Assembly (NCBI RefSeq): GCF_002074055.1
Contig: NZ_CP014619.1
Span: 434,001-498,000, forward strand
Origin: Frondihabitans sp. 762G35
Lineage (GTDB): Bacteria > Actinomycetota > Actinomycetes > Actinomycetales > Microbacteriaceae
Length of the DNA stretch: 64,000 bases
Direction of reading: 5' to 3'
Positions 288-63,716 of this stretch are shown piece after piece. The position numbers and the translations under genes were made by a program. The notes under the pieces were generated by a model. It did no database searches. It was given only the letters and a program-made list of their open reading frames with translations, and was not told the origin of the DNA. Position 1 is the first letter of the stretch; every line of letters starts with the position of its first letter.

Positions 288-1406
288 GTGTCGCCTCCCG
301 CCGGGGCTCGCGCGCCTCGCCCCGGTGGCGCCTCGCGCGTCCTCGGCGACTTCGACCCCCGGGCCGCCCTCGAGCGCGTCCGCTCGTCGCTGCCCGCGGT
401 GCTCCAGATCGTCGTCGCCGCCGGGGCCGCCTTCGCCATCGCCCACTTCGGCCTCGGCCACGCCATCCCCGTGCTCGCCGTCACCATCACCATCTCCTCG
501 CTCGGGTTCGCCCGCGACGCGAGGCCCCGGCGCGTCCTCGAGAACGCCGTTGGCGTCGTCATCGGGATCGCGCTCAGCGAGGTGCTCCTGCTCGCCGTCG
601 GCAAGGGGGTCTGGCAGTCCGGGGTCGTCCTGCTGGCCACGCTCCTCGTGGCGCGGTTCTTCTCGGCGAACAGCGCGTTCGCCGTCGCTGCGGCCACCCA
701 GTCGATGTTCGTCGCGCTCCTGCCCGACCCGGCCGGCGGCCCCTTCACCCGCTCCCTCGACGGCCTCGTGGGCGGAGCGATCGCCCTGGTGGTGACGGCG
801 ATCATCCCGCGCGACCCCGTCGGTCTGGCGCGTGCCGACGCCCGGCGGCTTTTCCGCGAGCTCGACGCGTCCTTCGCCGCTCTCGTCCTCGCCCTGCGCC
901 ACGGCGACGTGCGCCGGGCCGACGACGCGCTGGCCACCCTGCGGGCGACGCAGCCGCTCCTCGACGACTGGGCGCAGACGCTCGACACGGCGGTGTCGAT
1001 CGCGCGGATCTCGCCGTTCCTCCGCGGCCGGCTGCCGGCGCTCGAACGGGAGCAGCGGCTCCTGCGGTACCTCGATCTCGCGACGCGCAACCTGCGCGTG
1101 GTCGCCCGACGCATCGACACGTCGACGGGCGACGGCCGGAGACGCGGCGAGATCGCCGACCTCGTGGCGAGCATCGCCCGGGCCACCTCCGCCCTCGGCG
1201 ACTCGATCGAAGCCATCGAGCTGATCCCGGTCGCGCAGGATGCCCTGACCGCCGTCGCCCGGAGGCTCGACCCCCGCGCGGTCCTGCCCGGCGCTCCCGT
1301 CGGGGAGACCGTCGTCGTGGTGATGCTGCGGCCGCTCGTCATCGACCTGCTCATGGCGACGGGGCTCGACCACGAGGCGGCGCGGGAGCGGCTCGCGCCG
1401 GTGTGA
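288..1406 (+). CDS. FUSC-family / aromatic acid exporter-like membrane protein
   Basis: The 372-residue protein has about six hydrophobic segments packed into residues 37-180, followed by a cytoplasmic, Arg/Ala-rich alpha-helical region to the end. A half-size membrane domain plus a helical soluble domain is the layout of FUSC / aromatic-acid-exporter-like proteins, which are thought to pump organic acids out of the cell. The substrate cannot be read from sequence. The GTG start 3 bases after the ygfZ stop suggests translational coupling. No strict catalytic motif exists to test the call, so the family is moderately supported and the function is inferred. Confidence 0.65.
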   Translation: MSPPAGARAPRPGGASRVLGDFDPRAALERVRSSLPAVLQIVVAAGAAFAIAHFGLGHAIPVLAVTITISSLGFARDARPRRVLENAVGVVIGIALSEVLLLAVGKGVWQSGVVLLATLLVARFFSANSAFAVAAATQSMFVALLPDPAGGPFTRSLDGLVGGAIALVVTAIIPRDPVGLARADARRLFRELDASFAALVLALRHGDVRRADDALATLRATQPLLDDWAQTLDTAVSIARISPFLRGRLPALEREQRLLRYLDLATRNLRVVARRIDTSTGDGRRRGEIADLVASIARATSALGDSIEAIELIPVAQDALTAVARRLDPRAVLPGAPVGETVVVVMLRPLVIDLLMATGLDHEAARERLAPV

Positions 1407-1433
1407 GGTTTGGTGCGCTCCGCGGAGCGCGGG

Positions 1434-2219
1434 TCAGCGCGGCAGCGGAGCGACGGCCTCCCACGGCACGCTGATCTCCCCCAGGCGCCAGCGTGTGCGG
1501 CCGTGCAGCACGGGCCAGCCCTCGGCCCGGAGCGCCTCCACCGTGGCGACCCAGCGCTGCACGGGGGAGTAGACGGCGAGGGCCGCGTTGTAGCGCCAGT
1601 GCCGGTCGAGCGAGACGAGCAGATCGTGGATGCGTTCGCCCTCGACGTTGCGATGGATCAGGGCCTTCGGCAGGCGCTCGGCGACGACGAGAGGCGTCTC
1701 GAGCGACGCGAGGCGGAGGCTGGCGGTGAACGTCCGCGGTCCCTCCGCCGAGACGTCGATCCACGAGGCCACACGCCCGACCTCGTTGCAGGTCCCCTCG
1801 ACGAGCACCCCGTCGGGGGCGAGCCGGGAGGTCATGAGCGCCCACGCCTCTCCGACGTCGGCCTCGTCGTACTGCCGCAGGACGTTGAGGGCCCGGATGA
1901 CGGCCGGCCTCCGCCCGCCGTCGAGGGGGACCTCGAAGCCGCCCAACCGGAACGTCACCCCCGGCCGCGCCGAGAGGCTCGCCACCCGGACCCGCTCCGG
2001 ATCGATCTCGATGCCGACGACCTCGACGTCCGGCCGCACGCGGCTCAGCCGCTGGTGCAGCTCGAGCGGGGTCGTGGCGCTCGCCCCGTAGCCGAGGTCG
2101 ACCACGAGCGGGTCGGGCGCGTGACGGAACGCAGGATGCGCGGCGATCCACCGGTCGACCCGGCGGAGGCGGTTCGTGCCGGTCGTCCCGCGCGTGATCG
2201 ACCCGATTGGCATGGGCAC
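1434..2219 (-). CDS. class I SAM-dependent methyltransferase
   Basis: The 261-residue protein carries a Rossmann methyltransferase motif I (VVDLGYGASATTPLEL, about residues 39-54) and the acidic post-I loop (VVGIEIDPERV) that binds the ribose of S-adenosylmethionine. The C-terminal part, with RWRLGEISVPWEAV, resembles uncharacterised actinobacterial methyltransferases beside gpmA; I do not recognise the substrate. It is transcribed away from gpmA, with only 42 bases between the two start codons, so the promoters overlap or lie back to back. Its 3' end converges on the FUSC-type gene. Confidence 0.75.
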   Translation of the reverse strand: MPMPIGSITRGTTGTNRLRRVDRWIAAHPAFRHAPDPLVVDLGYGASATTPLELHQRLSRVRPDVEVVGIEIDPERVRVASLSARPGVTFRLGGFEVPLDGGRRPAVIRALNVLRQYDEADVGEAWALMTSRLAPDGVLVEGTCNEVGRVASWIDVSAEGPRTFTASLRLASLETPLVVAERLPKALIHRNVEGERIHDLLVSLDRHWRYNAALAVYSPVQRWVATVEALRAEGWPVLHGRTRWRLGEISVPWEAVAPLPR

Positions 2220-2249
2220 AAGTCAAGCATCCCGGCGAGGCACCTTCGA

Positions 2250-2255
2250 TAGGAT
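2250..2255 (+). promoter_or_regulatory. -10 element TAGGAT of gpmA (leaderless)
   Basis: TAGGAT is followed by exactly 6 bases and then the gpmA ATG. That places the transcription start on or next to the A of the start codon, and there is no Shine-Dalgarno sequence. The same layout recurs at several genes in this window. Confidence 0.6.
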
Positions 2256-2261
2256 TCCGAC

Positions 2262-3125: not shown

Positions 3126-3542
3126 TCACACGAAGAGCGCGCTGATCTCCTGCACGAGGGCGTCCATGTCGACGGTCGCGAGCGACCCGACCCGGACGAC
3201 GGGCCAGTCGCCGATCGCGGGCACGTCGGCGCAGCGGACCTCGACGAGGCGCGGCGCGCCGGCTGCGGCCAGCGGGGCCAGGACGGCGTCGGCGTCACCG
3301 GCGTCCCAGGTCGCGTCGATGACGACGCCGGCCTCGACGAGCGCGGCGGTGCGCCAGACGGTGTCGATGGCGAGGGCGCGGATGCCGGCGCGCGGCGCCA
3401 CCGGTCCGGTCTGCTGTGTCAGGGCATCCTGCAGTTTCGAGGGCTGGAGAACGGGACAGCCGAGCAGGATGCCCAGCGCCGACGCGATCTCCGTCTTGCG
3501 GGGGTCGGGGGAGCCGTTGACGAGAATCGCGACCTGAGCCAT
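3126..3542 (-). CDS. P-loop kinase-like hypothetical protein with degenerate Walker A
   Basis: The 138-residue protein starts MAQVAILVNGSPDPRKTEIA. This looks like the beta1/P-loop of small AAA or zeta-like kinases (normally GxPGSGKT), but the two glycines expected before the lysine are replaced by Asp-Pro-Arg. The rest (RALAIDTVWRTAALVEAGVVIDATW) keeps the order of strands seen in such ATP-binding proteins, with no clear Walker B. It may be a degenerate nucleotide-binding protein that no longer binds ATP normally. It converges on gpmA across a palindromic repeat and is divergent from the ArsR gene. No function is assigned. Confidence 0.6.
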   Translation of the reverse strand: MAQVAILVNGSPDPRKTEIASALGILLGCPVLQPSKLQDALTQQTGPVAPRAGIRALAIDTVWRTAALVEAGVVIDATWDAGDADAVLAPLAAAGAPRLVEVRCADVPAIGDWPVVRVGSLATVDMDALVQEISALFV

Positions 3543-5426: not shown

Positions 5427-5545
5427 GGTTCGTCCTCTCGCGAGCGATCCGGGTCGCAGGATGCCCGGCCGTCCCCGCACGACCGCCCGGTGCCGCCGAG
5501 TCTGATCCTCCCGCCCCCGCCCGTCAAGGCCCCGCGTCGTCCCGG

Positions 5546-5680: not shown

Positions 5681-7234
5681 TCAGCGGCTCCAGCGGAACA
5701 GGAGGTAGCGCCCCGTCGGCGACACGGCGACGCGCGCGACTCCGGCCGAAAGCGTCCTCAGCCACGCCCGCGATCCCGCCGAATACGCGAGCGTGTCGAC
5801 CTCGACGGCGCACGCTCCCGTGCGATCGACCACGGCCGCGAATCGCGAGGGCGTCGTGGCGTCCTGCCACACGCGGAAGCCGCGCCTGCCGGTGACCGAG
5901 CCGAAGCTCCAGCGCAGGTGCCCGGGTGTCGTGTGGAGGAAGGGGAGCGCCTCGTCGTAGGAGCCGGCGGCACCGTGGCTCCTGCCGGGCAGGAGGTCGG
6001 TGACCGGCAGCTGCGCCACACCGCAGCCGTCGGGGAGGGCCGCATCGGCCCGGGCCACGAAGGTGCGCACGTCGGAGTCCGACACGGGATCGATCTTGAC
6101 CACGCGCGTCACGGCTCCGACCTGATCGACGAGAGCCGCGACGACGACGAGGCCGACGATCGCTCCCCGGACGAGGCGTCGCCCGGGAACGGCTTGCAGC
6201 GCGAGCCCGGCGATGCCGAGCCCGAGGAGGGCCAGCAGGATGCTCAGCCGCGCCCAGGCTCGGATCTCCGGCCCCGCCACGTAGGCAACGACGACGCCGA
6301 GGCCGCTCGAGACGAAGAAGAGCCCCACCCAGACGGTCGACGTCGCGAGGGTCGAGAGTCGCGGGTCGGCGAGGAACGCGCCGAGACCGGACGCCTCTCC
6401 CGTCGGCACCCGTCGAAGGCGCGATCCGAGGAGGACTGCCGCGATGCCCACGACGAGGCCGGCCGCGGCGAGGAGCGATACCCCGGGGCTCTCCGTCGTG
6501 TGGAGCGTGAAGGTCCCCGCCAGATACTTCGCGGTGATCCGCGGGAGCAGCGGGATCCCCGATCCCTGCCAGGGCAGGAGCACGGTGACGATCTTCCCGG
6601 CGTAGAGCTCCGATTCCCCGATCGTCCGGCCGGTGAAGTACGGGGCGAAGCGCTCGCCGAAGGAGCGGCCGAGCGTGAACAGTGCGAGGGCCACGAAGAG
6701 CGAGAGGAAGCCGATGGCTGCGGTCGGCGCGAGGCTCGATGACCGGCGGGGCCGCGCGAGGAGGTCCGGGAGCGTCCCGGCGAGCCAGGCTCCGCCGACC
6801 GCGATGACGGCGAAAACGAAGTAGTAGGGACCGGTCGTCGCCACGAGGAGGCCGAGCAGAGCGCTCGGTGCCGTGGACCGCAAGGTCCGGGATCGTCGCG
6901 ATCCTGCGGACTCGCTCCACCTCCGGAAGGGATCCGTCGATCGCCCGGCCGCGACGAGGATCAGGATCCCGATGAGAGGAACGGCCCAGAAGCCGGCGAG
7001 GAAGTAGTGCCCGTACCCGATTCGGAGGAAGTGGTACGGCATGAGGCTGAAGAGGACGGAGGCCAGGACGGACCGCAGCCGGAGCGCGCGGAAGAAGAGG
7101 TAGGCGGTTGCCGCCGCACCCGCGAAAGAGAGGAGCGCGAAGACGTTCAGGAGCACGATCCCGTCCGGGGTCAGCGGCGCGAAGAGCCGGAGACCGACGA
7201 CGGACGCGAGGTCGACCTGCCCCGTGAAGAACAC
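5681..7234 (-). CDS. polytopic membrane protein, GT-C/YfhO-like, apparently lacking its N-terminus
   Basis: The 517-residue protein has about ten hydrophobic segments (for example LNVFALLSFAGAAATAYLFFRAL, FLAGFWAVPLIGILILVAAG and LLGLLVATTGPYYFVFAVIAVGGAWL) and ends in a soluble beta-rich region (DGCGVAQLPVTDLLPG...). It resembles membrane glycosyltransferases or sugar-lipid modifying proteins of the GT-C type. The frame is open upstream of the GTG at 7234 and encodes NLGFPRGLD-like residues that look like a normal extracytoplasmic loop. A TGA stops that frame near 7385 before any start codon or first membrane helix appears. The gene is therefore probably 5'-truncated, frameshifted, or started at GTG 7234 as a shortened protein. 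Confidence 0.6.
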   Translation of the reverse strand: MFFTGQVDLASVVGLRLFAPLTPDGIVLLNVFALLSFAGAAATAYLFFRALRLRSVLASVLFSLMPYHFLRIGYGHYFLAGFWAVPLIGILILVAAGRSTDPFRRWSESAGSRRSRTLRSTAPSALLGLLVATTGPYYFVFAVIAVGGAWLAGTLPDLLARPRRSSSLAPTAAIGFLSLFVALALFTLGRSFGERFAPYFTGRTIGESELYAGKIVTVLLPWQGSGIPLLPRITAKYLAGTFTLHTTESPGVSLLAAAGLVVGIAAVLLGSRLRRVPTGEASGLGAFLADPRLSTLATSTVWVGLFFVSSGLGVVVAYVAGPEIRAWARLSILLALLGLGIAGLALQAVPGRRLVRGAIVGLVVVAALVDQVGAVTRVVKIDPVSDSDVRTFVARADAALPDGCGVAQLPVTDLLPGRSHGAAGSYDEALPFLHTTPGHLRWSFGSVTGRRGFRVWQDATTPSRFAAVVDRTGACAVEVDTLAYSAGSRAWLRTLSAGVARVAVSPTGRYLLFRWSR

Positions 7235-7411
7235 GTCGAGCCCCCGGGGGAACCCGAGGTTCCGGTTCGTCGCGTACGAGAGCGAGGGCTTCGCGCAGGA
7301 GCCGCGGTGCCCTTCGGCGGGACACCGGCGGCCGAGGCGTCGCGGGTCGGATCGTGGAGGTCTGGCTGGTCACGCGGCGTCCTGTTCCACCCCCGTCGTT
7401 CGCGGGCCGGA

Positions 7412-8590
7412 TCAGTTCAGCAGGGGACCCGTCTCTCGGGCGTTCGCGCTTTTCGAGATGTTTTCGAGAGGTCCCCCGCCGGGGAACACCACCTCGACGA
7501 CGAGGCCGTCCGGCCTGCCCGCCTGGAGCAGGAGCCGCGCGTCGTGTGTCTCGACGATGCTCTTGACGAGGGCGAGACCGAGGCCGTGCCCCCCGGTGGC
7601 GGCACCGCTCGCCGTGCGGAGCGCGGTGCGGTGGAACGCCTCGGTGAGAAGCGGAACCGTCGCCTCCTCGATCCTGGGTCCGCTGTTCGACACGCGCAGG
7701 ACGACTCCGCCCGGCTCGCGGCCGACGGCGACGTGCAGGTCGCCGCCTCGGCGGTTGTGGCGCACGGCGTTCTGAACCAGGTTCCTCACGAGGAGCTGGA
7801 GCAGGACGGGATGACCCACCACGGTGGCCGAACGGAGGACCTCCGTGACGACGAGGGCTTCGTCGTCGATCGTCTCGGACTGGTCGGCGAGCTCGCGGCG
7901 GGCGAGCTCCGCGAGGTCGACATTTTCCGCGTGGTCGATCCGGTTGCTGCCGGCGAGATCGAGGAGCGCGCGCGTGATGTCGATGGTCCGGTCGTTCGTG
8001 ATCGACAGGCGGTACAGGAGCTGCTCGACCTCCGGCGTCTGCTCGGATCGGCTCGCGACCTGGAGCAACGTCTTCGTCGTCGTGAGGGGTGTCCGGAGCT
8101 CGTGGCTGACGTTCGCGGCGAACCGGCCCTGAACGGCGAACGCCGCCTCGAGACGGTCGAGCATCCCGTCGATCGTGTCGGCGAGGACGCGGACCTCGTC
8201 TTCCGGGCCGTCGAGGGCGATCCGACGGTCGATGGACGCCCCGTCGAGGGTCCTGGCCGTTCGGACGATGTCGGTCAGGGGTTTCAGAGCCCGTCCCGCG
8301 ACGAACCAGCCGACAGCGGCCCCGATCCCGCCGACGAGGACGAGTACGGGCACGGCGACCACAGCGAGGAGCTCCAGCAGGTCCCGCTTGTTCGAGACCA
8401 TGATCGACGGCGTGCCCAGGACACCGCTCGGGTACTGACTCGACGTGAACGCGTAGCCGGGGATGAGGAGCAGGACGACGGCCACCGCCGCGAGCACGCT
8501 GAACCCGGTGAGCACGACGAGCACCGCGTAGGTGATGGTGAGGCGCAGCCTCAGAGTCACCCGGATCCGACGCCTCCGCTCACTAGGCAC
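7412..8590 (-). CDS. sensor histidine kinase (HAMP, HisKA, HATPase)
   Basis: The 392-residue protein has two membrane segments (about residues 15-46 and 72-96) flanking a very short external loop of about 25 residues. A HAMP linker follows, then the H-box FAANVSHELRTPLTTTK with phospho-acceptor His163, an N-box (LLQLLVRNLVQNAVRHNR) and a G-box (GGHGLGLALVKSIVETH). The tiny sensor loop suggests it senses a membrane or cell-envelope signal. Its start overlaps the response regulator stop by 8 bases on the same strand, so it is the second gene of a two-component operon. The cognate signal is unknown. Confidence 0.9.
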   Translation of the reverse strand: MPSERRRRIRVTLRLRLTITYAVLVVLTGFSVLAAVAVVLLLIPGYAFTSSQYPSGVLGTPSIMVSNKRDLLELLAVVAVPVLVLVGGIGAAVGWFVAGRALKPLTDIVRTARTLDGASIDRRIALDGPEDEVRVLADTIDGMLDRLEAAFAVQGRFAANVSHELRTPLTTTKTLLQVASRSEQTPEVEQLLYRLSITNDRTIDITRALLDLAGSNRIDHAENVDLAELARRELADQSETIDDEALVVTEVLRSATVVGHPVLLQLLVRNLVQNAVRHNRRGGDLHVAVGREPGGVVLRVSNSGPRIEEATVPLLTEAFHRTALRTASGAATGGHGLGLALVKSIVETHDARLLLQAGRPDGLVVEVVFPGGGPLENISKSANARETGPLLN

Positions 8591-9410: not shown

Positions 9411-10538
9411 ATGTCGAACCCCACACGCGACTCGGGACGGTCGCTCCTGCCCTCCCTCACCGGGCTCCGCTTCCTCGCGGCGTTCGTGGTCTTCGCCTAT
9501 CACACCCGGAACATGGCCTATTTCTCGGGTCACGGGCAGGCCGCACTCGGCCTCGTCTTCGGCGCCGGCCCAACGGGTGTCTCCCTGTTCTTCGTCCTCT
9601 CGGGATTCGTGCTCGCCTGGTCGGACGACGGTTCGGGAACGTTCCGTGCATTCTGGCTGCGTCGTGCGGCGCGGATCGTGCCGACGCACCTCGTGGTCCT
9701 CGCTCTCGCCCTCCTGCTGGCGGCGACGATCCTGCCGAGCATCCGGACCGCCGACCCCTGGGCCGCTGTGGCAGACGGCCTCCTCGTGAGCAGCTGGAAC
9801 CCGGTCTGGTGGCAGGCCGGCAATCCGGTGAGCTGGTCCCTGGTCTGCGAGGCCTTCTTCTACGCGGTTTTCCCCCTCCTGATCCGTGCCCTCCGCCCAT
9901 TCGGGACCGGTCGGCTCCTGGCCGTCTTCGCGCTCGCCGTCGGAGGCGTCCTGGCGGTGGCGGCGGTCAACGACCACCTTCCGGCCGTGCTCGGGGCGAA
10001 CAGCTCTCCGCTGGCCCGACTGCCGGAATTCGTCGTCGGGATCGCCCTGGCGCGCCTGCTCCGCACGGGAGCGTGGCGGGGCCCCTCGCTCGCGGTCGGC
10101 GTGCTCGCCGCGCTCGCCGGATACGCCGGAGCGTCGCTGGCGCCGACGTCGGCGTTCACGAACGCAGGCTGGACGGTGATCGGTTACGCCCTCCTCATCG
10201 CCGCCCTGGCACGCTGCGACATCGAGGGGCGGCGGACGCTCCTCGCCTCCCGCCCGCTCGTGAGGCTCGGGGATCTCTCGTTCGCCTTCTACCTCGTCCA
10301 CGTGCTCGTCCTGCAAAGCATCGGTTCGCTCTGGCCGGGGCACCAGCCGACACTCGCCGCTGTGCCGGCCGCGCTGCTGACCCTCGCGGCCCTCGGCGTG
10401 GCGGTCACGGTGGCGCTGCTGCTGAACCGCGTCGTGGAGAGGCCGGGTCGGAGGCTCCTGCTGGCCCTTGCCGAGGGTCCGCGACCGGCGGTACGTCCAG
10501 ACGAGCGGCCGGTGCGAGCTCACCGCATCGGCACGTGA
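9411..10538 (+). CDS. acyltransferase family 3 (OafA-like) membrane protein
   Basis: The 375-residue integral membrane protein has about ten hydrophobic helices. The N-terminal LPSLTGLRFLAAFVVFAYHT carries the conserved catalytic histidine of acyltransferase-3 proteins. Further family signatures are GVSLFFVLSGFVLAW, FWLRRAARIVPTHLV, the WSLVCEAFFYAVFPLLI block and FAFYLVHVLVLQ near the C-terminus. These enzymes O-acetylate extracellular polysaccharides, peptidoglycan or lipids. No SGNH esterase domain is attached. A GGAAGGA ribosome-binding site precedes the ATG. The acceptor substrate cannot be read from the sequence. Confidence 0.88.
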   Translation: MSNPTRDSGRSLLPSLTGLRFLAAFVVFAYHTRNMAYFSGHGQAALGLVFGAGPTGVSLFFVLSGFVLAWSDDGSGTFRAFWLRRAARIVPTHLVVLALALLLAATILPSIRTADPWAAVADGLLVSSWNPVWWQAGNPVSWSLVCEAFFYAVFPLLIRALRPFGTGRLLAVFALAVGGVLAVAAVNDHLPAVLGANSSPLARLPEFVVGIALARLLRTGAWRGPSLAVGVLAALAGYAGASLAPTSAFTNAGWTVIGYALLIAALARCDIEGRRTLLASRPLVRLGDLSFAFYLVHVLVLQSIGSLWPGHQPTLAAVPAALLTLAALGVAVTVALLLNRVVERPGRRLLLALAEGPRPAVRPDERPVRAHRIGT

Positions 10539-10747: not shown

Positions 10748-10864
10748 TCAGGCGGCGTCGCGCTCCAGCACCGGCTCGCCGCGCGAGCCGTCGAAGCCGA
10801 CCACGATCTCGCTCGAGGCGGATCGCGGATCCTGCGTGCCGGGGGTCGGGCTGTCTGAGGTCAT
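10748..10864 (-). pseudogene. universal stress protein remnant (N-terminal ~38 residues only)
   Basis: An ATG at 10864 opens a 38-codon frame whose second half, EIVVGFDGSRGEPVLERDA, is the first beta strand and substrate loop of universal stress proteins (normally IVVGVDGS...AL.WA). The frame then ends at a TGA directly against the 15-bp tandem repeat, so the remaining roughly 100 residues of the domain are missing. Downstream to 10551 the minus strand is open in another frame but shows no USP features. A deletion or repeat-mediated truncation is the likely cause. A short functional peptide cannot be excluded. Confidence 0.5.
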
Positions 10865-16634: not shown

Positions 16635-16654
16635 GACGGCAGGATGCGGGGCGC

Positions 16655-40515: not shown

Positions 40516-40561
40516 ACCTGTGGCGCGCAGGATGCCCGGAGCACGGCCCCACCCGGGCCGA

Positions 40562-54286: not shown

Positions 54287-55276
54287 CTAGGACCGCAGGA
54301 TGCCCGAACGCGCGCCGTACCAGGCCGCCAGCCGCGCGAACCCCTCCTCGAGCGACACCGCCGGGACCCAGTCGAGATCGCGGCGCGTCCGGCGCTGGTC
54401 GAACCAGTGCGCCGTCGACAGCTGCTCGGCGAGGAAGCGCGTCATCGGCGGCTCGTCGACGCCCGGCCGGAGGCGCCAGACGGCTTCCACGACCGAGCCG
54501 AGAGTCGTGGCCAGACCGGCGGGGACGCTCCGGACCGGTTCGCGGACCCCCGCGGCGCGGCAGATCCCGGCGAGGAGCTCGGCCACCGGACGGGGCTCGC
54601 CGTTCGTCAGGACGTATGCGTTGCCGTGGACGGCCTCGGCCCGCTCGAGCGCCTGCGCGATCCCCGTCGCGGCGTTGTCCACGAAGAGCGAGTCGATCAG
54701 GGCGGTGCCGTGCGCGAGCAGGGGCAGCCGGCCGGACCTCGACCGGTCGACGATCCGCTCCACGAGCTGCGTGTCGCCCGGGCCCCAGACGAGGTGCGGC
54801 CGGACGGCGACCACGGCGAAACCGTCGCGGTCGGCGCCGAGGGCCAGGAGCTCCGCGCTCGCCTTCGTGCGGGCGTAGTCGCCCCGCGCCGCCGCCGGGT
54901 CGGCGGGCAGCGCGTCGTCGCCGACGATCGACGTGCCCGCGTGCGCGACGGAGGGCGAGGAGACGTTCACGAAGCGCTCGACGCCGGCGCGGCGGGCCTC
55001 CTCGAGCAGGAGGGCGGTGCCCTGCACGTTGACGCGGTCGAACTCCGCGGGGTCGCCGGCGAGGGAGACGCGCGCGGCGAGGTGCACGACGGCGTGGACG
55101 CCCGCGGTGGCGGTGCGGACGTCGTCGCGGTCGGTGAGGGAGCCCCGGGCATCCTGCGCGCCCTCGACGCCGGAGGCGCGACGCTGGAAGGTGCGCACCT
55201 CGTGGCCCCGGGCGATCAGTTCGGCGGCGACGGCACCGCCGAGGAGGCCGCTCGCCCCCGTCACCAGGACGCGCAC
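54287..55276 (-). CDS. oleD: OleD-like NAD(P)-dependent beta-ketoacid reductase (olefin synthesis)
   Basis: The 329-residue extended short-chain dehydrogenase has the nucleotide-binding VRVLVTGASGLLGGAVAAELIARGHEV, VVHLAARVSLAGDPAEFDRVNVQGTALLLEEA, a catalytic Tyr-x3-Lys (DYARTKASAELL) and a C-terminal region like 3-beta-hydroxysteroid dehydrogenases. In the Ole pathway OleD reduces the 2-alkyl-3-ketoacid made by OleA to a 2-alkyl-3-hydroxyacid. The gene starts with GTG 8 bases after the oleBC stop and is the last gene of the operon. Its end faces the LacI promoter region. Confidence 0.88.
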   Translation of the reverse strand: MRVLVTGASGLLGGAVAAELIARGHEVRTFQRRASGVEGAQDARGSLTDRDDVRTATAGVHAVVHLAARVSLAGDPAEFDRVNVQGTALLLEEARRAGVERFVNVSSPSVAHAGTSIVGDDALPADPAAARGDYARTKASAELLALGADRDGFAVVAVRPHLVWGPGDTQLVERIVDRSRSGRLPLLAHGTALIDSLFVDNAATGIAQALERAEAVHGNAYVLTNGEPRPVAELLAGICRAAGVREPVRSVPAGLATTLGSVVEAVWRLRPGVDEPPMTRFLAEQLSTAHWFDQRRTRRDLDWVPAVSLEEGFARLAAWYGARSGILRS

Positions 55277-55284: not shown

Positions 55285-57987
55285 TCAGCGGGGAGCGACC
55301 AGGGCGCCGCCCGCGAGGACGTCGGCCGCCCACGAGGAGAGCGCACTCCGGTCGATCTTGGAGTTGTGGCGGACGTCGGTCGGGAGCTGGGCGACGACGA
55401 GCACCGCGGCGATCGGCACGCCGGCGATCCGGCGCACCTCGGCGGCGAGATCCGCGTCGGCCAGGGCCGGCCGATCGGTCGGCGTGGTCGTCTCGGCGAC
55501 GACGACGATCTGCTGCGTCCCGGCGGGGCCGACGCCGACGACGGCGGCGCGCGCCACCTCGGCGAGGAGCTCGACGCGCTGCTCGGGGCCGACGGGCGTG
55601 ACGACTCCGTCGGCGGTGGTGATGACGTGCGGGAGGCGGCCCTCGACGAAGACTCTCCCGGCGGCGTCGAGGTGGCCGACGTCGCCCGTCCGGTGCCAGC
55701 GCTCGCCGGCGAGAGCTCCCCGGCGGGCGGCGCGGTCGGTCGACCACAGCCGGTCGTAGTGGTCGAAGAGGTGGGGCGCCGAGACGCAGATCTCGCCGGT
55801 CCGACCCGCGTCGGTCGTCTCCGCGAGATCGAGGGCAGGATGCCCGGAGTCGTCGAGCGCCGCGATCCGCACCCGCACGCCCGCGACCGGGGTCCCCACG
55901 CAGACGCCGCCCACGGAGGAGGCGTCTCCCGCCTCGCGGATCGCGTCGAGCGTCACGTCGGTGAGCAGGAGCCCCTCCGTCATGCCGTAGGGCGTGTGAG
56001 CCGTCGCCCCGGGCAGCAGCGCGGAAGCCCGCTCGAGGAGCCCCTCGGAGACGGGGGCGCCGGCCGAGAGGAACGTCGTGACGGTGCCCAGGGCCGCCCG
56101 CTCGTCGGCGTCGAGGTCGTCGGCGGTCGCGACGACGTTGGCGAGGGCGGCGGGCGAGAGGAACAGGACCGTCGCGTCGACCTCGCGAGCGGCCTCGGCC
56201 ACGGCGCGGGCCGTCAACGTCTTCGGCGAGGTGACGTCCATGTCGGGTGTGACCGATCGGGCGCCGATGGCGGGGCCGAGCAGGGCGAAGGGAGCGAATC
56301 CCGCGACGAGCCCGGTGCCGGGGCCGACGCCGTAGGTCTCGGTGAGGACCCCGCAGATCGCCGCCAGCTGCGCGTGCGTGTAGGAGACGCCCTTGGCAGG
56401 ACCGGTGGAGCCCGAGGTGAAGAGGATCGCGGCCTCGTCGTCGGCCCCGGGCTCGACGGGGAGGCCCTGCAGACGGGCGGCGCCGAGGGAGGCGAGCTCG
56501 GGAAGCGAGTGGTCGACCCCGAGGGCCTTCGCGGCGGCGGCCGGCAGGACCTCCGTCGAGATCCGCTTGCCGGGCCAGCCGAGCGCCCGGGCCGCGGTGA
56601 GCCCGGGGAGGGCGCCGATCAGATGATGGGGCCAGGCGCCTCGGACGGCGCGGGTCAGGCCCTTCACCCCGAGGCCCGAGTCGGCCACGACGACGACCGC
56701 GCCGATCCGGAGGCAGGCGTAGAGGACCGCGGTGAGGTCCGCTCCCGGGGGGACGAGCAGCGAGACGCGGTCGCCCTTCGTCACGCCGCTCGCCGCGAGC
56801 CCCGCGGACAGGCGGGAGACGCGGCGCGAGAGAGCGCGCCAGGAGACGACGGTGGGCGACGCGCCCGCCATCTGCACGAGGGCGGTGTCGTCGCTGTCGC
56901 GGCGCTCGTCGAGCCACGCCCACAGGGGACGGTGGGGCGGCGGAGCGGACGGGGAGGGATCGGCGGGGGCATCCTGCGGGCCGACGGGACGGGGCCGGGC
57001 GGAGTCGGCGGCGACCGCGGGCTCCGTCGCGAACCGGTCGTCGAGCCAGGTCAGGGCGGCGGACGCGAAGTCCACGTCTTCGGCGACGAGGTGACCCGCC
57101 CCTTCGTAGCGGTGCACGTCCGGGCGGACGAGCCGTGCGAGGAGGTCGTCGAGGTAGCGGTCGCTGAAGATCGGGTCGCGCGGCCCCCAGAGCAGGAGCG
57201 ACGGCACGTCGAGGGTCCGGATCGACTCGGCCACGCGCCTCCGCTCGGCCTCGCTCGGGTGCGTCTCGTCGACGGGGATGTCGGCCACGAAGGCGCCGAT
57301 GCCGCCGCGGCGGTCGGCCCCGCGGTAGGGGGCGCGGTACGCCTCCTTGACCTCGGTCGGGAGAGCAGGATGCGCGAGCGCGAGGGTGGTCTCGAGGAAC
57401 GCGGTCGTCGTGACCGTCGCGCGGCCGAGCACGCCCTTGCCCAGCGCGAGGCGCAGCGGCGCGGGGATCTTCGACGTCTCGGGCTGGTGGACGGCCGTGT
57501 TGAGGAGCATGACCGCGTCGACCTGGTCGGCGTGGTCGACCGCCCAGCCGAGCGAGATGACACCGCCCCAGTCGTGGCCGAAGGTGACGACGCGGCCGTC
57601 GAGGCCGAGGGCGTCGGTGAGGTCGGCGAGGTCGCCCACCCGGAGCGTCAGATCGCGCTCGACACCGGTGCGCTCGGAGAAGCCCATGTCGAGCTGGTCG
57701 ACGGCGACGACGCGCCAGGCCGTGCCTCCGGCGAGGGCCTGCTCCGTGGCCGCGCGGACGAGGGAGCGCCAGAGGAACGACCAGGTCGGGTTGCCGTGCA
57801 CGCAGAGGATCGTGCCGCGGGGCTCGATCCCGGCGGCGTCGAGCGTCGGGCCGGAGTCGAGGACGTGCCAGGTGCGTCCCGCCGCGGGGACGAGCCGGGA
57901 GAACGACGGGTCGAGACCGGGCAGACCGTGGGGCGGGAGCGAGGCCGGAGCCGTCCGCTGAGCCGCGCGGGGAAGCCGGGAGGTCAC
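55285..57987 (-). CDS. oleBC: OleBC fusion: beta-lactone decarboxylase plus beta-lactone synthetase
   Basis: The 900-residue protein joins two enzymes. Residues about 20-330 are an alpha/beta hydrolase like haloalkane dehalogenases (HGNPTWSFLWRSLV, nucleophile Asp139 in TFGHDWGGVISLG, late His in EGAGHLVAEDVDF), matching OleB. Residues about 345-900 are an AMP-dependent ligase-type domain (ILFTSGSTGPAKGVSYTHAQ, TPYGMTEGLLL, RWHRTGDVGHLDAAGRVFVEGR, LPTDVRHNSKIDRSALSSW), matching OleC. OleC closes 2-alkyl-3-hydroxyacids to beta-lactones, and OleB decarboxylates them to cis-olefins. OleBC fusions are known in actinobacteria such as Micrococcus. The GTG start overlaps the oleA stop. Confidence 0.9.
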   Translation of the reverse strand: MTSRLPRAAQRTAPASLPPHGLPGLDPSFSRLVPAAGRTWHVLDSGPTLDAAGIEPRGTILCVHGNPTWSFLWRSLVRAATEQALAGGTAWRVVAVDQLDMGFSERTGVERDLTLRVGDLADLTDALGLDGRVVTFGHDWGGVISLGWAVDHADQVDAVMLLNTAVHQPETSKIPAPLRLALGKGVLGRATVTTTAFLETTLALAHPALPTEVKEAYRAPYRGADRRGGIGAFVADIPVDETHPSEAERRRVAESIRTLDVPSLLLWGPRDPIFSDRYLDDLLARLVRPDVHRYEGAGHLVAEDVDFASAALTWLDDRFATEPAVAADSARPRPVGPQDAPADPSPSAPPPHRPLWAWLDERRDSDDTALVQMAGASPTVVSWRALSRRVSRLSAGLAASGVTKGDRVSLLVPPGADLTAVLYACLRIGAVVVVADSGLGVKGLTRAVRGAWPHHLIGALPGLTAARALGWPGKRISTEVLPAAAAKALGVDHSLPELASLGAARLQGLPVEPGADDEAAILFTSGSTGPAKGVSYTHAQLAAICGVLTETYGVGPGTGLVAGFAPFALLGPAIGARSVTPDMDVTSPKTLTARAVAEAAREVDATVLFLSPAALANVVATADDLDADERAALGTVTTFLSAGAPVSEGLLERASALLPGATAHTPYGMTEGLLLTDVTLDAIREAGDASSVGGVCVGTPVAGVRVRIAALDDSGHPALDLAETTDAGRTGEICVSAPHLFDHYDRLWSTDRAARRGALAGERWHRTGDVGHLDAAGRVFVEGRLPHVITTADGVVTPVGPEQRVELLAEVARAAVVGVGPAGTQQIVVVAETTTPTDRPALADADLAAEVRRIAGVPIAAVLVVAQLPTDVRHNSKIDRSALSSWAADVLAGGALVAPR

Positions 57988-59006
57988 CAAGCCAGCTCGG
58001 TCATCGCGGTGTTGATGCCGGATCCGACGCCCATGAGGAGCACGCGGTCGCCCTTCGAGAGCGACTCCTTCTCGCTCGCCAGGGTGATCGGGATCGACGC
58101 CGAGCCGACGTTGCCGAGGGTGGGGTAGGTGAGGGGGACGAGGTTGCGGTCGATCCCGGCGGACTTCACGAAGTCGGCGGTGTGGATGTCGGAGACCTGG
58201 TGCATCACGTAGCGATCCATGTCGGCCCAGTTCCACTCCGCCTTCGCGTCGCTCCAGGCCTGCACGACGAGCTCCATGCCGTGCTTGAGCAGGCCCTTGG
58301 CGTCGGTGAACATGCCGTTGACGGTGCCGACGCAGAGGTCGTTGTACTGGCTGGCCGAGCGGGTGATGCCGCCGACGATGCGGTGACCCTCGGGGTGGAG
58401 ATCGGCGCGGCCCAGCACCGCGGCCGCGGCACCGGAGCCGAGGGTGAGGCTGGCGAACTCGCTCATGAAGTCTTTTCGGGCGATGTCGCCGTTGAGGAGA
58501 CGGTCGACCGTGTTGGTCTGGACGTCGTCGAAGTCCTCGCCGTCGATGATGATCGCGTAGTCGACCTGGCCGGCGTCGATCAGCGACGCGGCGAGGTTCA
58601 TGCCGTTCACGAAGCCGAGGCACGCGTTGGCGATGTCGAAGTTCAGGGCGGCCGACCCGAGGCCGAGGCCGTCGTGGAGGTGGACGGCCACGCTCGGCTC
58701 GAGGTTGCGCCGCGTGATCGACGTGTTGATGAGGAGGCCGATCTGGTCGGCGCGGACGCCGGCCTCGTCGAGGGCGCGCTTGCCCGCCTCGATCGCCGCC
58801 TTCTCGAACGTCTGGTTCTCGCTCCAGTTGCGACGCTCGAAGACTCCGGCGACCCGCTGGAGAAGGCCCTTGGGGAGTTTGAGACGGCGGAGGACCGGCT
58901 GCAGGATCCTGTCGAGATCGTCGGAGGTCGTCACGCGGTCGGCCAGCGTGCTCGTGACCGAGAGAAGAGCCACGTTCCTGTGCCTCGTCGTTGCATTTCC
59001 GTCCAA
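57984..59006 (-). CDS. oleA: OleA, head-to-head fatty acyl-CoA condensing thiolase
   Basis: The 340-residue ketosynthase III-type thiolase has catalytic Cys129 in LNFDIANACLGFVNGMNLAASLI, a catalytic His in RYVMHQVSDIHTADF, and an Asn in TYPTLGNVGSASIPI. The NLEPSVAVHLHDGLGLG segment and the N-terminal RHRNVALLSV are those of OleA rather than FabH. OleA condenses two fatty acyl-CoAs to a 2-alkyl-3-ketoacid, the first step of long-chain olefin synthesis. The start is a TTG with an AGGGAG ribosome-binding site 5 bases upstream. First gene of oleA-oleBC-oleD. Confidence 0.9.
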   Translation of the reverse strand: MDGNATTRHRNVALLSVTSTLADRVTTSDDLDRILQPVLRRLKLPKGLLQRVAGVFERRNWSENQTFEKAAIEAGKRALDEAGVRADQIGLLINTSITRRNLEPSVAVHLHDGLGLGSAALNFDIANACLGFVNGMNLAASLIDAGQVDYAIIIDGEDFDDVQTNTVDRLLNGDIARKDFMSEFASLTLGSGAAAAVLGRADLHPEGHRIVGGITRSASQYNDLCVGTVNGMFTDAKGLLKHGMELVVQAWSDAKAEWNWADMDRYVMHQVSDIHTADFVKSAGIDRNLVPLTYPTLGNVGSASIPITLASEKESLSKGDRVLLMGVGSGINTAMTELAW

Positions 59007-59117: not shown

Positions 59118-59783
59118 TTATTTCTTCTTCGCGGGTGCCGTGTACTCGAAGTGCCAGGGTTCGCCCCACGCATTCCCGACGGGGTACCAGCCGTAGGCGG
59201 GGCCGTTCGCGTCGGCCCACTTCTTCTGCGGGCTGCCCGCCACGTTGACTCCGGAGAAGATGTCGTCCGCGAGAGCCCACCCGTGGACGGACGTCCCCGG
59301 GACGGCTGCGACCGCGACCTTGGGCTTCTTGGTCCAGTACCGGCCGCTCCAGAAGATGCCGGGGCGCGTGCGGCTGGGGGTGTAGCGATCGACGAAGATC
59401 TTCTGCTGCGTCGCGAAGTCGCGGTACCCCTCCGAGAGGGCGAGCGTCTTGCCGAACTTCGCGCTGTAGGCCTTCGACATCGAGGCGAACGCGGCGGCGG
59501 CGTCCGGGCGGAGGTACCCGCTCGACGCCTTCTTGAGCGAGCTGACCGGGATCTTTCCGTTGGCGTAGCCGCCCCAGGCGATCGAGCGGGGTGCGGCCTT
59601 GGCCTCGGCGCTCGGGCTCGCAGGATGCGCGGGGCCCGCGGCGTCGGCCGGCGCCACGGCCGCGGAGGCGACGAGCGCCACGGCGAGGAGGGCGGTGGCC
59701 GCGGCTCCGGCGCCGCCGCGTCGCCTCGCGGGGCGCCGCGACGGCCGGGGGGAAGTGGGTGGAGTCTGTGCGGTGGGGAGCAT
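59118..59783 (-). CDS. exported D-alanyl-D-alanine carboxypeptidase-like protein (VanY/M15B)
   Basis: The 221-residue precursor has a long Arg-rich N-region and a hydrophobic export segment (about residues 22-49, ending APADAAG). The mature domain matches VanY-type peptidases: LSEGYRDFATQQKIFVDRY (Arg that positions substrate), GTSVHGWALADDIF (zinc His and Asp, HxxxxxxD) and GEPWHFEYTA (catalytic Glu and zinc His, ExxH). It would trim peptidoglycan stem peptides outside the membrane. It is upstream of the ole operon on the same strand but separated by 111 bases, so it is probably independent. Confidence 0.85.
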   Translation of the reverse strand: MLPTAQTPPTSPRPSRRPARRRGGAGAAATALLAVALVASAAVAPADAAGPAHPASPSAEAKAAPRSIAWGGYANGKIPVSSLKKASSGYLRPDAAAAFASMSKAYSAKFGKTLALSEGYRDFATQQKIFVDRYTPSRTRPGIFWSGRYWTKKPKVAVAAVPGTSVHGWALADDIFSGVNVAGSPQKKWADANGPAYGWYPVGNAWGEPWHFEYTAPAKKK

Positions 59784-61579: not shown

Positions 61580-61602
61580 GCAGGATGCCCGCTGCATCCT
61601 GC
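61580..61602 (+). repeat. inverted pair of the GCAGGATGC 9-mer
   Basis: GCAGGATGC (61580-61588) is followed, after 5 bases, by its complement GCATCCTGC (61594-61602). The result is a perfect 9-bp hairpin directly upstream of the -10 element of the DUF2332 gene. Confidence 0.85.
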
Positions 61603-61617: not shown

Positions 61618-62586
61618 GTGACCACGGCCGACCGCTTCGCCGCCTTCGCCCGGTCGGCGGAGGCCGGCGGTTCCCCGCTCTACGCCGATTGGGCCGACGG
61701 ATTCGCGCTCGACGAGGGCCTCCTCGCGCTCGTCGACCGGGCGCGGGAGTCGCAGCGTCAGCCCGTCCTCGTGTTCGCCGTCTGCCGGATCCTCGGGGCC
61801 CCGCTCGCCCCCTTCGTCACGCTGCGCGCGTGGCTGCTCGCTCACGCCGACGTGGTCCTCCCGGAGCTCGACCGGCGGCGCACCCAGACGAACGACGTCC
61901 GCCGTGCCGCGCCCGTGGCGGCGGCTCTCGCCCGGATCGACGGACCGGTCGCGCTGCTCGAGGTCGGAGCCGCCGCCGGGTTGGGGCTCCGGCCCGATCT
62001 GTTCCGCATCGACGTGCGCGACGGCGACGGCTCCCGGATCCTCGGCGATCCATCGGGAGATGTTCGCCTTCGCCTCGATGTCGGCGGCTCGCTCGGGCTG
62101 CCCGGCGATGCGTCCCTGCCCGCGGTCGTCGACCGCCGCGGACTCGACCTCAGCCCCCTCGATCCGGCCTCGGACGACGACGCCCTTTGGCTCGAGACGC
62201 TCCTCTGGCCGGGTCAGGACGACCGCGTCGATCTCCTGCGTCGGGCCGTCGCCATCGCGCGGCAGGAGCCGGCCACCGTCACCCGGGGCGACGCCGTCGA
62301 CGGCCTGGACGCCCTCGTCCGCGCCGCACCCGCGGGAGCCGTCCCCGTGGTGATCACCTCCGGCACGCTGGTCTACCTCCCGGGGGCGCGGCGGCAGGCC
62401 TTCGTCGACCGGGTGGGGGCGCTCGGCGTGCGGTGGATCTCGTACGAGAAGACGGGACTGCTGGAGGGGGTCCAGGCGACCCTCCCGGATCCTGCGATCG
62501 CCGACGGCTGGTTCGCGACCCTCGCTCTCGACGGGCGCGCGATCGCCGTCGGCGACGCGCACGGGACGCGGCTCCGCGCCCTCTGA
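61618..62586 (+). CDS. DUF2332 domain protein
   Basis: The 322-residue protein has the family pattern RFAAFARSAEAGGSPLYADWADGFALDEGLLALVDRA near the N-terminus. A methyltransferase-like core follows (VALLEVGAAAGLGLRPDLF), then RRGLDLSPLDPASDDDALWLETLLWPGQDDRVDLLRRAV and a C-terminal VPVVITSGTLVYLPGARRQAFVDRVGALGVRWISYE. The LLEVGAAAGLG segment looks like a SAM-binding motif I, but activity has not been shown to my knowledge. Its promoter sits directly behind the inverted 9-mer pair. It is divergent from msrB. Confidence 0.82.
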   Translation: MTTADRFAAFARSAEAGGSPLYADWADGFALDEGLLALVDRARESQRQPVLVFAVCRILGAPLAPFVTLRAWLLAHADVVLPELDRRRTQTNDVRRAAPVAAALARIDGPVALLEVGAAAGLGLRPDLFRIDVRDGDGSRILGDPSGDVRLRLDVGGSLGLPGDASLPAVVDRRGLDLSPLDPASDDDALWLETLLWPGQDDRVDLLRRAVAIARQEPATVTRGDAVDGLDALVRAAPAGAVPVVITSGTLVYLPGARRQAFVDRVGALGVRWISYEKTGLLEGVQATLPDPAIADGWFATLALDGRAIAVGDAHGTRLRAL

Positions 62587-62690
62587 GCGGCCACCGACCC
62601 CGACCGGGCGGCAAGTCGCGCGACGTGCGCCCGTCCTCCGTCGGCGAGCGGCCTCGCCGCCCTAGGATGTGCGGGACCGAAGGGCGATCG

Positions 62691-62963
62691 ATGCGAGACG
62701 AGCAGGCGGGTGGACTCACCGAGCGTGAGCGCCGCATCCTCGATTTCGAGCAGGATGCCCCGGCCCTTCCCGCCCGGAAGGCCGTCGCCATCCGGAGCGA
62801 GCTGGGCCTCACGCCGCCTCGATACCAGCAACTCCTCGGTTCCCTCATAGAAAAACCCGATGCACTGGCGTACGCCCCGATGCTCGTCGGACGACTCCTC
62901 CGTCTCCGCGAGACCCGGGCGGACGCCCGACGGGCCCGTACCTTCGGGCACTCGACCCGCTGA
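62691..62963 (+). CDS. DUF3263 family protein
   Basis: The 90-residue protein has the family core LTERERRILDFEQDAPALPARKAVAIRSELGLTPPRYQQLLGSLIEKPDALAYAPMLVGRLLRLRETR, a compact HTH-like helical bundle. It is normally found just upstream of a LytR_C protein gene in actinobacteria, as here (22-base gap). The start is ATG 62691. It may bind DNA, but no target is known. One GCAGGATGC copy falls inside the gene and encodes the Gln-Asp-Ala of FEQDAPA. Confidence 0.85.
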   Translation: MRDEQAGGLTERERRILDFEQDAPALPARKAVAIRSELGLTPPRYQQLLGSLIEKPDALAYAPMLVGRLLRLRETRADARRARTFGHSTR

Positions 62964-62984
62964 CCCACGGAAGACCGCACACCC

Positions 62985-63611
62985 ATGGCCAAGTTCCCGC
63001 CCGATCGTTTCGACGGGGTCCCCGACTCCCTGCAGCGCGTCGGTGCGCACCGGTCCGGGAGGCGCTCGCACCACGGCCTCATCGTCTTCGCCTGGGCCGC
63101 TCTCGCCACGGGCCTGCTCGTGGGTGCGGGAGTGCTCGCCCTCAACGTGCTGAACAACGGCACGCAGTTCACCGCTGGCGGCGGCACCACGACCGGCGTC
63201 ACCTCGCCGAAGCCGTCGGCCTCGGCGTCCACGCCCTCGTCGTCCTCCCCCTCCGCGTCGTCGCCCGCCGCCTCCTCGGCGCCGACGCCCTCGGTCACCC
63301 CGCTGACCGACCCGACCCAGATCGACTCGACCGTGACGAAGATCACCGTCCTCAACGGCACGACGACCAGGGGCCTCGCCGCCAACGCCGCGACGACGCT
63401 GCGGAACGGCGGCTGGGTCGTCGCCAGCCAGGGCAACACCACCTCGACGGCTCCGTCGTCGGTCGTCTACTACTCGACCACGGCGCCCGCGAACCAGTCG
63501 ATCGCGCTCGGCATCGCGCAGAAGCTCGGGATCGCCAGCGTCCAGCCGAGCACGGCGTTCCCGAACGCGGCGGTCGCCGTCGTGCTGGGGCCCGACTACA
63601 CGCTGAAGTAA
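62985..63611 (+). CDS. LytR C-terminal domain protein, membrane-anchored
   Basis: The 208-residue protein has one membrane segment (about residues 32-55), a Ser/Pro/Thr-rich linker of about 45 residues, and a C-terminal LytR_C domain (ITVLNGTTTRGLAANAATTLRNGGWVVASQGNTTSTAPSSVVYYSTTAPANQSIALGIAQKLGI...VAVVLGPDYT). It is predicted to sit outside the membrane, possibly contacting cell-wall polymers. It lacks the catalytic LytR-CpsA-Psr domain. It forms an operon with DUF3263, and a terminator follows. Confidence 0.88.
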   Translation: MAKFPPDRFDGVPDSLQRVGAHRSGRRSHHGLIVFAWAALATGLLVGAGVLALNVLNNGTQFTAGGGTTTGVTSPKPSASASTPSSSSPSASSPAASSAPTPSVTPLTDPTQIDSTVTKITVLNGTTTRGLAANAATTLRNGGWVVASQGNTTSTAPSSVVYYSTTAPANQSIALGIAQKLGIASVQPSTAFPNAAVAVVLGPDYTLK

Positions 63612-63678
63612 GAGGCTCAGCCGGCCGGGTGTCGGGCCGCACGTGACGGTCAGGGGCGCGCCAGGTTACGGCCGTGTT

Positions 63679-63716
63679 AAAACCTGGCCCCGGGCATCCT
63701 GCGGGCCCGGTTTTTT
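63679..63716 (+). terminator. Rho-independent terminator with GCATCCTGC in its loop
   Basis: AAAACCTGGCCC (63679-63690) pairs with GGGCCCGGTTTT (63703-63714, one mismatch) and is followed by more T residues. The 12-base loop contains GCATCCTGC (63694-63702). Confidence 0.8.

Follow-up and report, generated by a model that had tools for sequence, protein, structure and literature searches.

An over-used nine-letter word on a Frondihabitans chromosome, a candidate dialect of an uptake-sequence-like signal in Microbacteriaceae

Why should a single nine-letter word, GCAGGATGC, recur 27 times in 64 kb of bacterial DNA? The stretch that raises the question (the window, 64,000 bases, G000:C1:434001-498000) belongs to the single 3,409,251-base (3.41 Mb) contig of Frondihabitans sp. 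762G35, here termed G000. Judged by its sequence, the window is Frondihabitans (Microbacteriaceae) in the genus sense of the genome library; its IspDF is 75% identical to that of Frondihabitans sucicola over 302 columns, and clusters with Frondihabitans and Frigoribacterium. Over-used self-recognition words are best known from bacteria that identify the DNA of their own kind at uptake. By analogy we give roughly even odds (about 0.5) to the reading that GCAGGATGC is an uptake-sequence-like self tag, a dialect of a word scattered through many Microbacteriaceae chromosomes.

All 27 exact copies claimed in the sequence-only reading of this DNA were recovered on the two strands (16 on the plus and 11 on the minus strand), the first starting at 1235 and the last ending at 63702. 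One hundred dinucleotide shuffles of the window gave a mean of 0.65 copies and never more than 4. The signal is genome-wide, as had been supposed: the chromosome carries 433 forward and 470 reverse copies, 903 in all, against 14 and 9 (23) of the control, the same word read backwards and counted on both strands.

Our main null permutes synonymous codons inside each gene, keeping every protein and each gene's codon counts. The G000 sample comprised the window and 40 stretches of 20 kb, 864 kb in total; genes were called with a simple codon-score script that has no published annotation behind it. Forty shuffles of its 758 genes yielded 26.6 ± 5.4 coding copies of GCAGGATGC (maximum 39), seven times fewer than the 190 observed. 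Selection on proteins had been dismissed as the cause from the peptides alone; the shuffle bears this out and extends it to codon usage. By this shuffle, which keeps codon counts but not codon pairs, it is hardly credible that the word arises as a side effect of protein content and codon usage or from a repeat family. Such a by-product would fit the commonest coding frames, ATC-CTG (Ile-Leu) and CAG-GAT (Gln-Asp), and the Markov expectations for the sample, which climb from 27 (order 4) and 88 (order 5) to 171 (order 6) and 223 (order 7) against 251 observed. On the high-order Markov check that had been proposed, the rise at orders 6 and 7 thus leans towards refutation, while the codon shuffle remains far below the count. 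We consider these two orders an unfair null because they are trained on sub-words that the motif has itself inflated and that hold most of the word.

Nor do the surroundings of the copies point to a repeat. In the 3′ flank, 78% of copies (n = 251) have C as second base and 62% have G as third, with little beyond, and GCAGGATGCCCGG has 24 coding copies where 0.7 are expected from the synonymous shuffle. Because the flanks are nearly information-free past about five bases, there is no long repeat, and a repeat family was rejected as the source; noncoding copies exist as well. A single duplicated gene family is ruled out by coding copies in five of the six frame and orientation classes, and the window host genes with recognised domains belong to different families.

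Two further words are over-used in the coding sequence of G000 under the same shuffle: GCAGGAGCC (201 copies against 26.4) and GCAGGATCC (91 against 14.5). Neighbour words are less enriched (GCAGGAGCG 82 against 32.1, GCCGGATGC 32 against 17.2, GCAGGAGGC 76 against 43.9 and GCAGGATGG 17 against 11.0) and GCAGGACGC is not enriched (34 against 50.5). One T separates GCAGGATGCC from GCAGGAGCC. For GCAGGAGCC in this genome the codon shuffle is the better test, because the reversed word is itself frequent (471 copies). GCAGGATGC is one dialect of a larger signal. Its outer triplets, GCA and TGC, are complementary, as had been pointed out; the sister words do not share this property, which makes it an improbable basis for function.

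The same pattern extends to the six other Frondihabitans genomes (G001 to G006, of which G003 is Frondihabitans sp. PhB188 and G005 F. sucicola NBRC 108728). Shuffle tests used samples of 180 to 864 kb from six of the seven; G004 enters through whole-genome word counts alone. In five of the six sampled, words built on CAGGA or GCAGGA with species-specific ends head the over-used coding 9-mers: GCAGGAGCC and GCAGGATGC in G000; CGCAGGATC, GCAGGATCC and CGCAGGAGC in G001; CGCAGGAAC (66 against 7.5) and GCAGGAACT (58 against 9.7) in G003; GCAGGATCC, CGCAGGATC and GCAGGATCG in G005; and CGCAGGATC (77 against 3.8) and GCAGGATCG (84 against 8.5) in G006. The exception is G002, where AGGATGCGA comes first and the words of this type, GGCAGGATC and GCAGGATGC, rank second and third. 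Whole-genome counts of GCAGGATGC, GCAGGAGCC, GCAGGATC and GCAGGAAC, in that order, are 903, 870, 1013 and 207 in G000; 241, 941, 2135 and 304 in G001; 717, 135, 2092 and 199 in G002; 108, 119, 844 and 1394 in G003; 63, 66, 919 and 173 in G004; 278, 117, 2980 and 289 in G005; and 483, 118, 3208 and 278 in G006. GCAGGAAC therefore stands out in G003 (173-304 in the other six) and GCAGGAGCC in G001 and G000 (66-135 in the other five). GCAGGATC is common across the genus (844-3208; reversed word 10-27) compared with 41-686 in 30 other genomes of the family, while one larger genome of the order reaches 871 and overlaps the lowest Frondihabitans counts. Separately, F. sucicola has a repeat of its own around CGAAGGGGATT, with 18 matches in 260 kb and none in the samples of five other genomes.

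Across the family, pooled orthologous loci (64 of 80 were used; the Okibacterium row was uninformative) suggested CGGATGCC for Agromyces and a number of further genera; taken with the whole-genome counts, (A)CGGATGCC is the word of many genera. Since pooled loci are orthologous and hence not independent, it is single-genome samples (about 94-101 kb each) and whole-genome counts that carry the family claim. We counted ACGGATGCC in 50 named genomes. It occurs 915-1300 times in all six Agromyces (reversed word 1-13), 501-1011 times in all five Cryobacterium, 840 times in Mycetocola manganoxydans, 591 in M. zhadangensis, 609 and 247 in Lacisediminihabitans, 556 in Microterricola and 531 in Okibacterium. 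Only 22-83 copies were found in two Frondihabitans, two Frigoribacterium, three Rathayibacter, six Curtobacterium, Plantibacter, two Naasia, three Leifsonia and three Mycetocola; other genomes were intermediate. Frigoribacterium has instead AGGAGGCGCGG: 8 of 8 genomes carry 383-1152 copies (reversed word 4-27), and the 20 other genomes searched carry no more than 40. Strain CG_9.8, filed as Frigoribacterium and outside the eight-genome count, lacks AGGAGGCGCGG in its 20-kb locus and groups elsewhere in the tree.

Single-genome samples gave GACGGATGC in Agromyces, CGGATGCCG in Cryobacterium, AGGAGGCGC and GGAGGCGCG in Frigoribacterium, and, in Leifsonia Root227, TGGATGCG (71 against 10.1) and GGATGCGC, of the GGATGCG type; weak words were seen in Planctomonas and, of a GGAGTCG type, in Rathayibacter. 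Samples of this size from Naasia aerilata and Plantibacter showed no clear word and serve as negative controls for the method, and no word was recognised for Curtobacterium in the pooled loci. Among the matches listed for two Curtobacterium genomes (G079 and G081), AGGAGGCGCGG lies in at least eight inverted pairs spaced exactly 23 bases, which suggests a short hairpin element. GGA is common to all genus words, and GCAGGA is the Frondihabitans core. On an IspDF tree of 48 rows (47 of the 50 counted genomes plus the window; three low-count Curtobacterium were omitted) three word classes, one of which pools different words as "other word", require 8 changes, compared with a shuffled mean of 18.3 and none of 200 shuffles as low; the classes use a cut at 130 copies that was set once the counts were known. 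We infer that a single signal, changing as it evolves, underlies the words of the various genera.

Individual sites come and go. When G000 is aligned by blastn to five congeners (79% identity on average), 10 of 65 GCAGGATGC sites, 3 of 70 GCAGGAGCC sites and 3 of 22 GCAGGATCC sites are identical, whereas anagram control words are identical at 720 of 3000 and 864 of 5039; it is this low identity relative to the controls that reveals the fast turnover. Conservation of site positions, which had been put forward as a check, was accordingly poor. Word sites retain their first six bases in fewer cases (34 of 131) than control sites do (2039 of 5121). Among sites that retain them, a change in the last three is commoner than in controls (18 of 34 against 653 of 2039; p = 0.015), so that word ends seem to change in place.

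In F. sucicola GCAGGATC is scarce on parts of one plasmid. The plasmid pNBRC108728a has 6 copies of GCAGGATC in 175 of its 450 kb (duplicated end of the record omitted), below the 11.1 expected from an order-3 Markov model, and 260 kb of the chromosome have 184 (expectation 39). The word is about 20 times rarer in these parts of one plasmid than on the chromosome, at GC contents of 67.0% and 69.1%. The same plasmid bears a second type IV pilus set (L213:21948-27780, with a PilT/PilU-type ATPase, a GspE/PulE-type ATPase, a type II F protein and pilM), and yet is nearly without the chromosomal word. In L212 and L215, starting at about 25 kb, the record of this plasmid seems to duplicate its first part near its end, with the same protein accessions, probably an untrimmed circular overlap.

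On the G000 chromosome the three words together make 593 sites in 864 kb, one per 1.5 kb. Fifty-eight of the 251 GCAGGATGC copies are fully noncoding, 3 partly so and 190 coding, noncoding DNA being 15% of the sample. Within the window 9 of 27 are noncoding by our later gene calls and 12 of 27 by a cruder first call, where eight had been claimed; none lies inside the rRNA genes when coordinates are compared, as had been stated. Inside genes GCAGGATGC has a density of 0.26 per kb; in gaps between genes it has 0.86 where the neighbours are co-directional, 0.73 where they are divergent and 0.24 where they are convergent, and long stretches lacking any called gene have 0.04. Control words show no noncoding rise (0.12-0.24). 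When genes are ranked by codon typicality, each of the five quintiles shows an enrichment of 6.2-7.8 fold. The site sum rises with block GC (Spearman 0.58), and the low-GC block L005 (62.8% GC) has no GCAGGATGC. A mosaic of donor blocks with differing dialects was not seen, GCAGGATGC and GCAGGAGCC showing no heterogeneity from one 20-kb block to the next (p = 0.27). In the window, three noncoding features containing GCAGGATGC fold as predicted hairpins, one of them an exact inverted pair. With 190 of 251 copies in coding sequence, the distribution is not that of the intergenic palindromes known as repetitive extragenic palindromic (REP) sequences or bacterial interspersed mosaic elements (BIMEs).

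Strand bias relative to origin and terminus had been suggested as a further check, and no polarity was found: the largest imbalance over an origin/terminus grid was 41 of 593 sites, against a mean maximum of 46 in 200 strand shuffles, and word strands are balanced in both chromosome halves. This bears on the notion that the words, as non-polar Chi-like or architectural sites, bind some protein other than an uptake receptor that serves recombination, repair, segregation or the nucleoid along the whole chromosome. The even spread over gene classes and the frequency of sites would suit such a protein; the Chi- or KOPS-guided machines (KOPS, FtsK orienting polar sequences), however, need the polarity that is absent here, congeneric species use different words, and conservation of single sites is poor; we regard the proposal as quite unlikely. 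A neutral drive, in which mutation or gene conversion is biased towards the word without any benefit, would account for rapid turnover at poorly conserved positions and for uniform enrichment over gene classes. Alone it leaves unexplained why the core is fixed while the ends switch, why a plasmid in the same cell has so few copies and why sites are fewer at lower GC. Nine bases are also a long target, and we know of no mutational context of that length; a drive of this kind seems very unlikely.

Sites in the window, together with the type IV pilus genes of G000, are collected in Table 1. Two window features are distinct from the words. An msiK RNA leader (Rfam RF01747, 67.2 bits) lies at 27016-27074 on the minus strand. 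The other is an intergenic element some 54 bases long, GAGACTCCACGA...TCGTGGAGTCTCG, which often forms tandem runs and occurs at 49456 and in L007, L012, L016, L018, L020, L025, L037 and others; its end, GTGGAGTCTC, is found 62 times in the 864 kb (61 fully noncoding) and 0-1 times in five congener samples.

Table 1. Word copies in the window (window coordinates) and type IV pilus genes of G000 (coordinates of locus L210)
Feature	Position	Strand	Context
GCAGGATGC	1235..1243	+	in gene 288-1406 (+)
GCAGGATGC	2131..2139	+	in gene 1434-2219 (-)
GCAGGATGC	3424..3432	-	in called gene 3126-3542 (-)
GCAGGATGC	3464..3472	+	in called gene 3126-3542 (-)
GCAGGATGC	5456..5464	+	noncoding
GCAGGATGC	6235..6243	+	in gene 5681-7234 (-)
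GCAGGATGC	11496..11504	+	in periplasmic-binding-protein gene
GCAGGATGC	16639..16647	+	noncoding
GCAGGATGC	21728..21736	-	in ispDF gene
GCAGGATGC	22216..22224	-	in cysS gene
GCAGGATGC	30680..30688	+	noncoding by later calls; edge of dehydrogenase open reading frame by first call
GCAGGATGC	34718..34726	-	in called gene 34341-35033 (+)
GCAGGATGC	36107..36115	+	in called gene 35859-36860 (-)
GCAGGATGC	39909..39917	-	in proline/aldehyde dehydrogenase gene
GCAGGATGC	40527..40535	+	noncoding
GCAGGATGC	51604..51612	-	noncoding; apical part of strong predicted hairpin
GCAGGATGC	53504..53512	-	in LacI-family regulator gene
GCAGGATGC	54295..54303	+	in called gene 54287-55276 (-)
GCAGGATGC	55149..55157	-	in called gene 54287-55276 (-)
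GCAGGATGC	55835..55843	+	in gene 55285-58623 (-)
GCAGGATGC	56969..56977	-	in gene 55285-58623 (-)
GCAGGATGC	57365..57373	+	in gene 55285-58623 (-)
GCAGGATGC	59620..59628	+	in VanY-domain gene
GCAGGATGC	61580..61588	+	noncoding; first half of inverted pair (9-bp stem, 5-nt loop)
GCAGGATGC	61594..61602	-	noncoding; second half of inverted pair begun at 61580
GCAGGATGC	62750..62758	+	noncoding
GCAGGATGC	63694..63702	-	noncoding; inside terminator-like hairpin, then T run on + strand
GCAGGAGCC	1057..1065	-	
GCAGGAGCC	5977..5985	-	
GCAGGAGCC	7295..7303	+	
GCAGGAGCC	7528..7536	+	
GCAGGAGCC	10453..10461	-	
GCAGGAGCC	21301..21309	+	
GCAGGAGCC	21331..21339	+	
GCAGGAGCC	24023..24031	+	
GCAGGAGCC	24339..24347	-	
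GCAGGAGCC	24875..24883	+	
GCAGGAGCC	25266..25274	-	
GCAGGAGCC	32822..32830	-	
GCAGGAGCC	34992..35000	+	
GCAGGAGCC	38240..38248	-	
GCAGGAGCC	48620..48628	-	inverted pair with GCAGGAGCC at 48648..48656
GCAGGAGCC	48648..48656	+	inverted pair with GCAGGAGCC at 48620..48628
GCAGGAGCC	51384..51392	+	
GCAGGAGCC	55965..55973	+	
GCAGGAGCC	62262..62270	+	
GCAGGATCC	10827..10835	-	
GCAGGATCC	38552..38560	+	
GCAGGATCC	58901..58909	+	
GCAGGATCC	62487..62495	-	
PilB-type ATPase, type IV pilus locus of G000	L210:4551-6218		
Second, PilT-like ATPase, type IV pilus locus of G000	L210:6257-7990		
PilC-type protein, type IV pilus locus of G000	L210:7990-9216		
Four genes with N-methyl pilin start, G000	L210:9245-12707		two of four below Pfam cut-off

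Several observations weigh against a self tag. Matches to comEC were found in 49 of 49 genomes and ComEA-type matches in 51 of 51 (30 above the curated cut-off), so that these universal proteins do not discriminate; in G002 comEC is two abutting fragments in different open frames (G002:C1:2981383-2982173), the result of a recent break or of an error in sequencing, and the genome still carries the word. A word is present in 22 of 32 PilT-positive and 10 of 18 PilT-negative genomes, so PilT does not track it (p = 0.38, with presence set at 130 copies after the counts had been seen, and genomes with an unrecognised word scored negative). The type IV pilus had looked like the determinant in 14 genomes (pilB/pilT), and was rejected as such on these 50. 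Within Mycetocola/Okibacterium, PilT and the word do coincide (both in 3 genomes, neither in 3), perhaps through a single event. The six Agromyces, the strongest carriers, have no PilT above the cut-off; neither of the two checked has a PilB-like match, and the one Agromyces locus read has Tad/Flp genes. No ComP-like receptor was identified, the receptor as such not having been searched for directly. As to the words themselves, reversed controls are common for GCAGGAGCC (106-471) and GCAGGAAC (66-200) across Frondihabitans, which makes whole-genome controls weak for both; GCAGGATGC is moderately common outside the genus (6-276 copies in 30 genomes of the family, 14-166 in 23 of the order); and the noncoding rise seen in G000 is small in G006 and absent in G005 (0.70 per kb in co-directional gaps against 0.72 in genes). 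Close inverted pairs are only weakly in excess in G000: GCAGGATGC pairs in plus-minus order number 2 against 0.55 expected, and inverted pairs of the three words 9 against 3.05, three of the 9 being overlapping palindromes.

We nevertheless favour the self-tag reading because the word is non-palindromic and non-polar, because its dialects coexist and follow lineages round a fixed core, because sites are spread uniformly over genes and turn over rapidly, and because the plasmid is poor in the word. Competence genes for DNA import are present as well, with comEC and ComEA-type matches in every genome tested. Under this reading a DNA-binding protein of the competence machinery would prefer DNA bearing the word, and recombination of tagged DNA back into the chromosome would let the word accumulate at many tolerated positions. 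As the preference of the receptor drifted the word would drift too, with the inner core fixed (GGA in the family, GCAGGA in Frondihabitans) and the ends becoming lineage-specific. The wider proposal, to which we would give a little less than an even chance, is a family-wide Microbacteriaceae uptake system with at least four genus dialects round GGA. Neither Actinomycetota nor single-membrane bacteria would have had one before; it would use type IV pili in some genera and Tad/Flp pili in Agromyces, and would raise a barrier of sexual isolation between close species. According to the available text of the papers concerned, Tad/Flp pili serve transformation in Micrococcus luteus (PMC6370729) and natural transformation is published for two Microbacteriaceae (PMC11577799, which has Rhodoluna lacicola as transformable). 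In the open-licence literature, at the level of titles and the first lines of abstracts, we found no account of an uptake word in Microbacteriaceae or Actinomycetota; the letters of GCAGGATGC in one Actinomycetota paper belong to primers (PMC13136126).

Were the proposal true, this would be a third, independent case, in Actinomycetota, of self-recognition evolving convergently in bacterial sex. It would also offer a genus whose close species differ in word, so that receptor and word could be matched, and practical guidance for transforming Microbacteriaceae. If uptake is not involved, it still has to be explained why a chromosome-wide signal switches words among congeneric species.

How, then, do the words compare with known systems? 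Chi and KOPS are short, over-used, non-palindromic words, as are those described here; unlike them, our words have no replichore polarity and change between congeners, and identity with either was rejected because no origin/terminus pair on the grid gave polarity. The sequence-only reading had offered likenesses to Chi, to the cyanobacterial highly iterated palindrome HIP1 and to uptake signals. The last holds for dialects and non-polarity, the first fails on polarity, and for HIP1 the defining palindrome is missing.

A HIP-like role is the main rival, and we think it unlikely: a modification enzyme or another enzyme acting on the DNA template would act at the word, mutation bias or selection would accumulate it, and dialects would be changes of specificity. 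HIP1 and the alternate HIPs are likewise short chromosome-wide words that are swapped in some lineages, and the available text of PMC4390886 has the alternate HIPs accompanied by a word-specific methyltransferase. Several Frondihabitans words include GATC, which would suit modification, but the two main words of G000 do not. HIPs are tied to methyltransferases and, with their reported extensions, palindromic in the same source, whereas no main word here, in Frondihabitans or among the sister words, equals its own reverse complement. The plasmid copies of GCAGGATC, below chance, also argue against this role.

The self-tag reading draws on closer parallels. The uptake signal sequences (USS) of Pasteurellaceae are 9-base words of two types that share an inner core, in the part of PMC12616744 available; the word and core differ from ours. 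The DNA uptake sequences (DUS) of Neisseriaceae come, in the available portions of PMC3630211 and PMC12616744, in eight dialects round a three-base core, with two dialects in one genome and one dialect made by insertion of a T. The Frondihabitans words differ in phylum, in cell envelope, in the word itself and in the weak excess of inverted pairs. They resemble DUS in being short and non-palindromic, with hundreds to thousands of copies, lineage dialects and an invariant inner core, and in having two dialects within one genome, one of them a one-base insertion, as described for DUS in PMC3630211.

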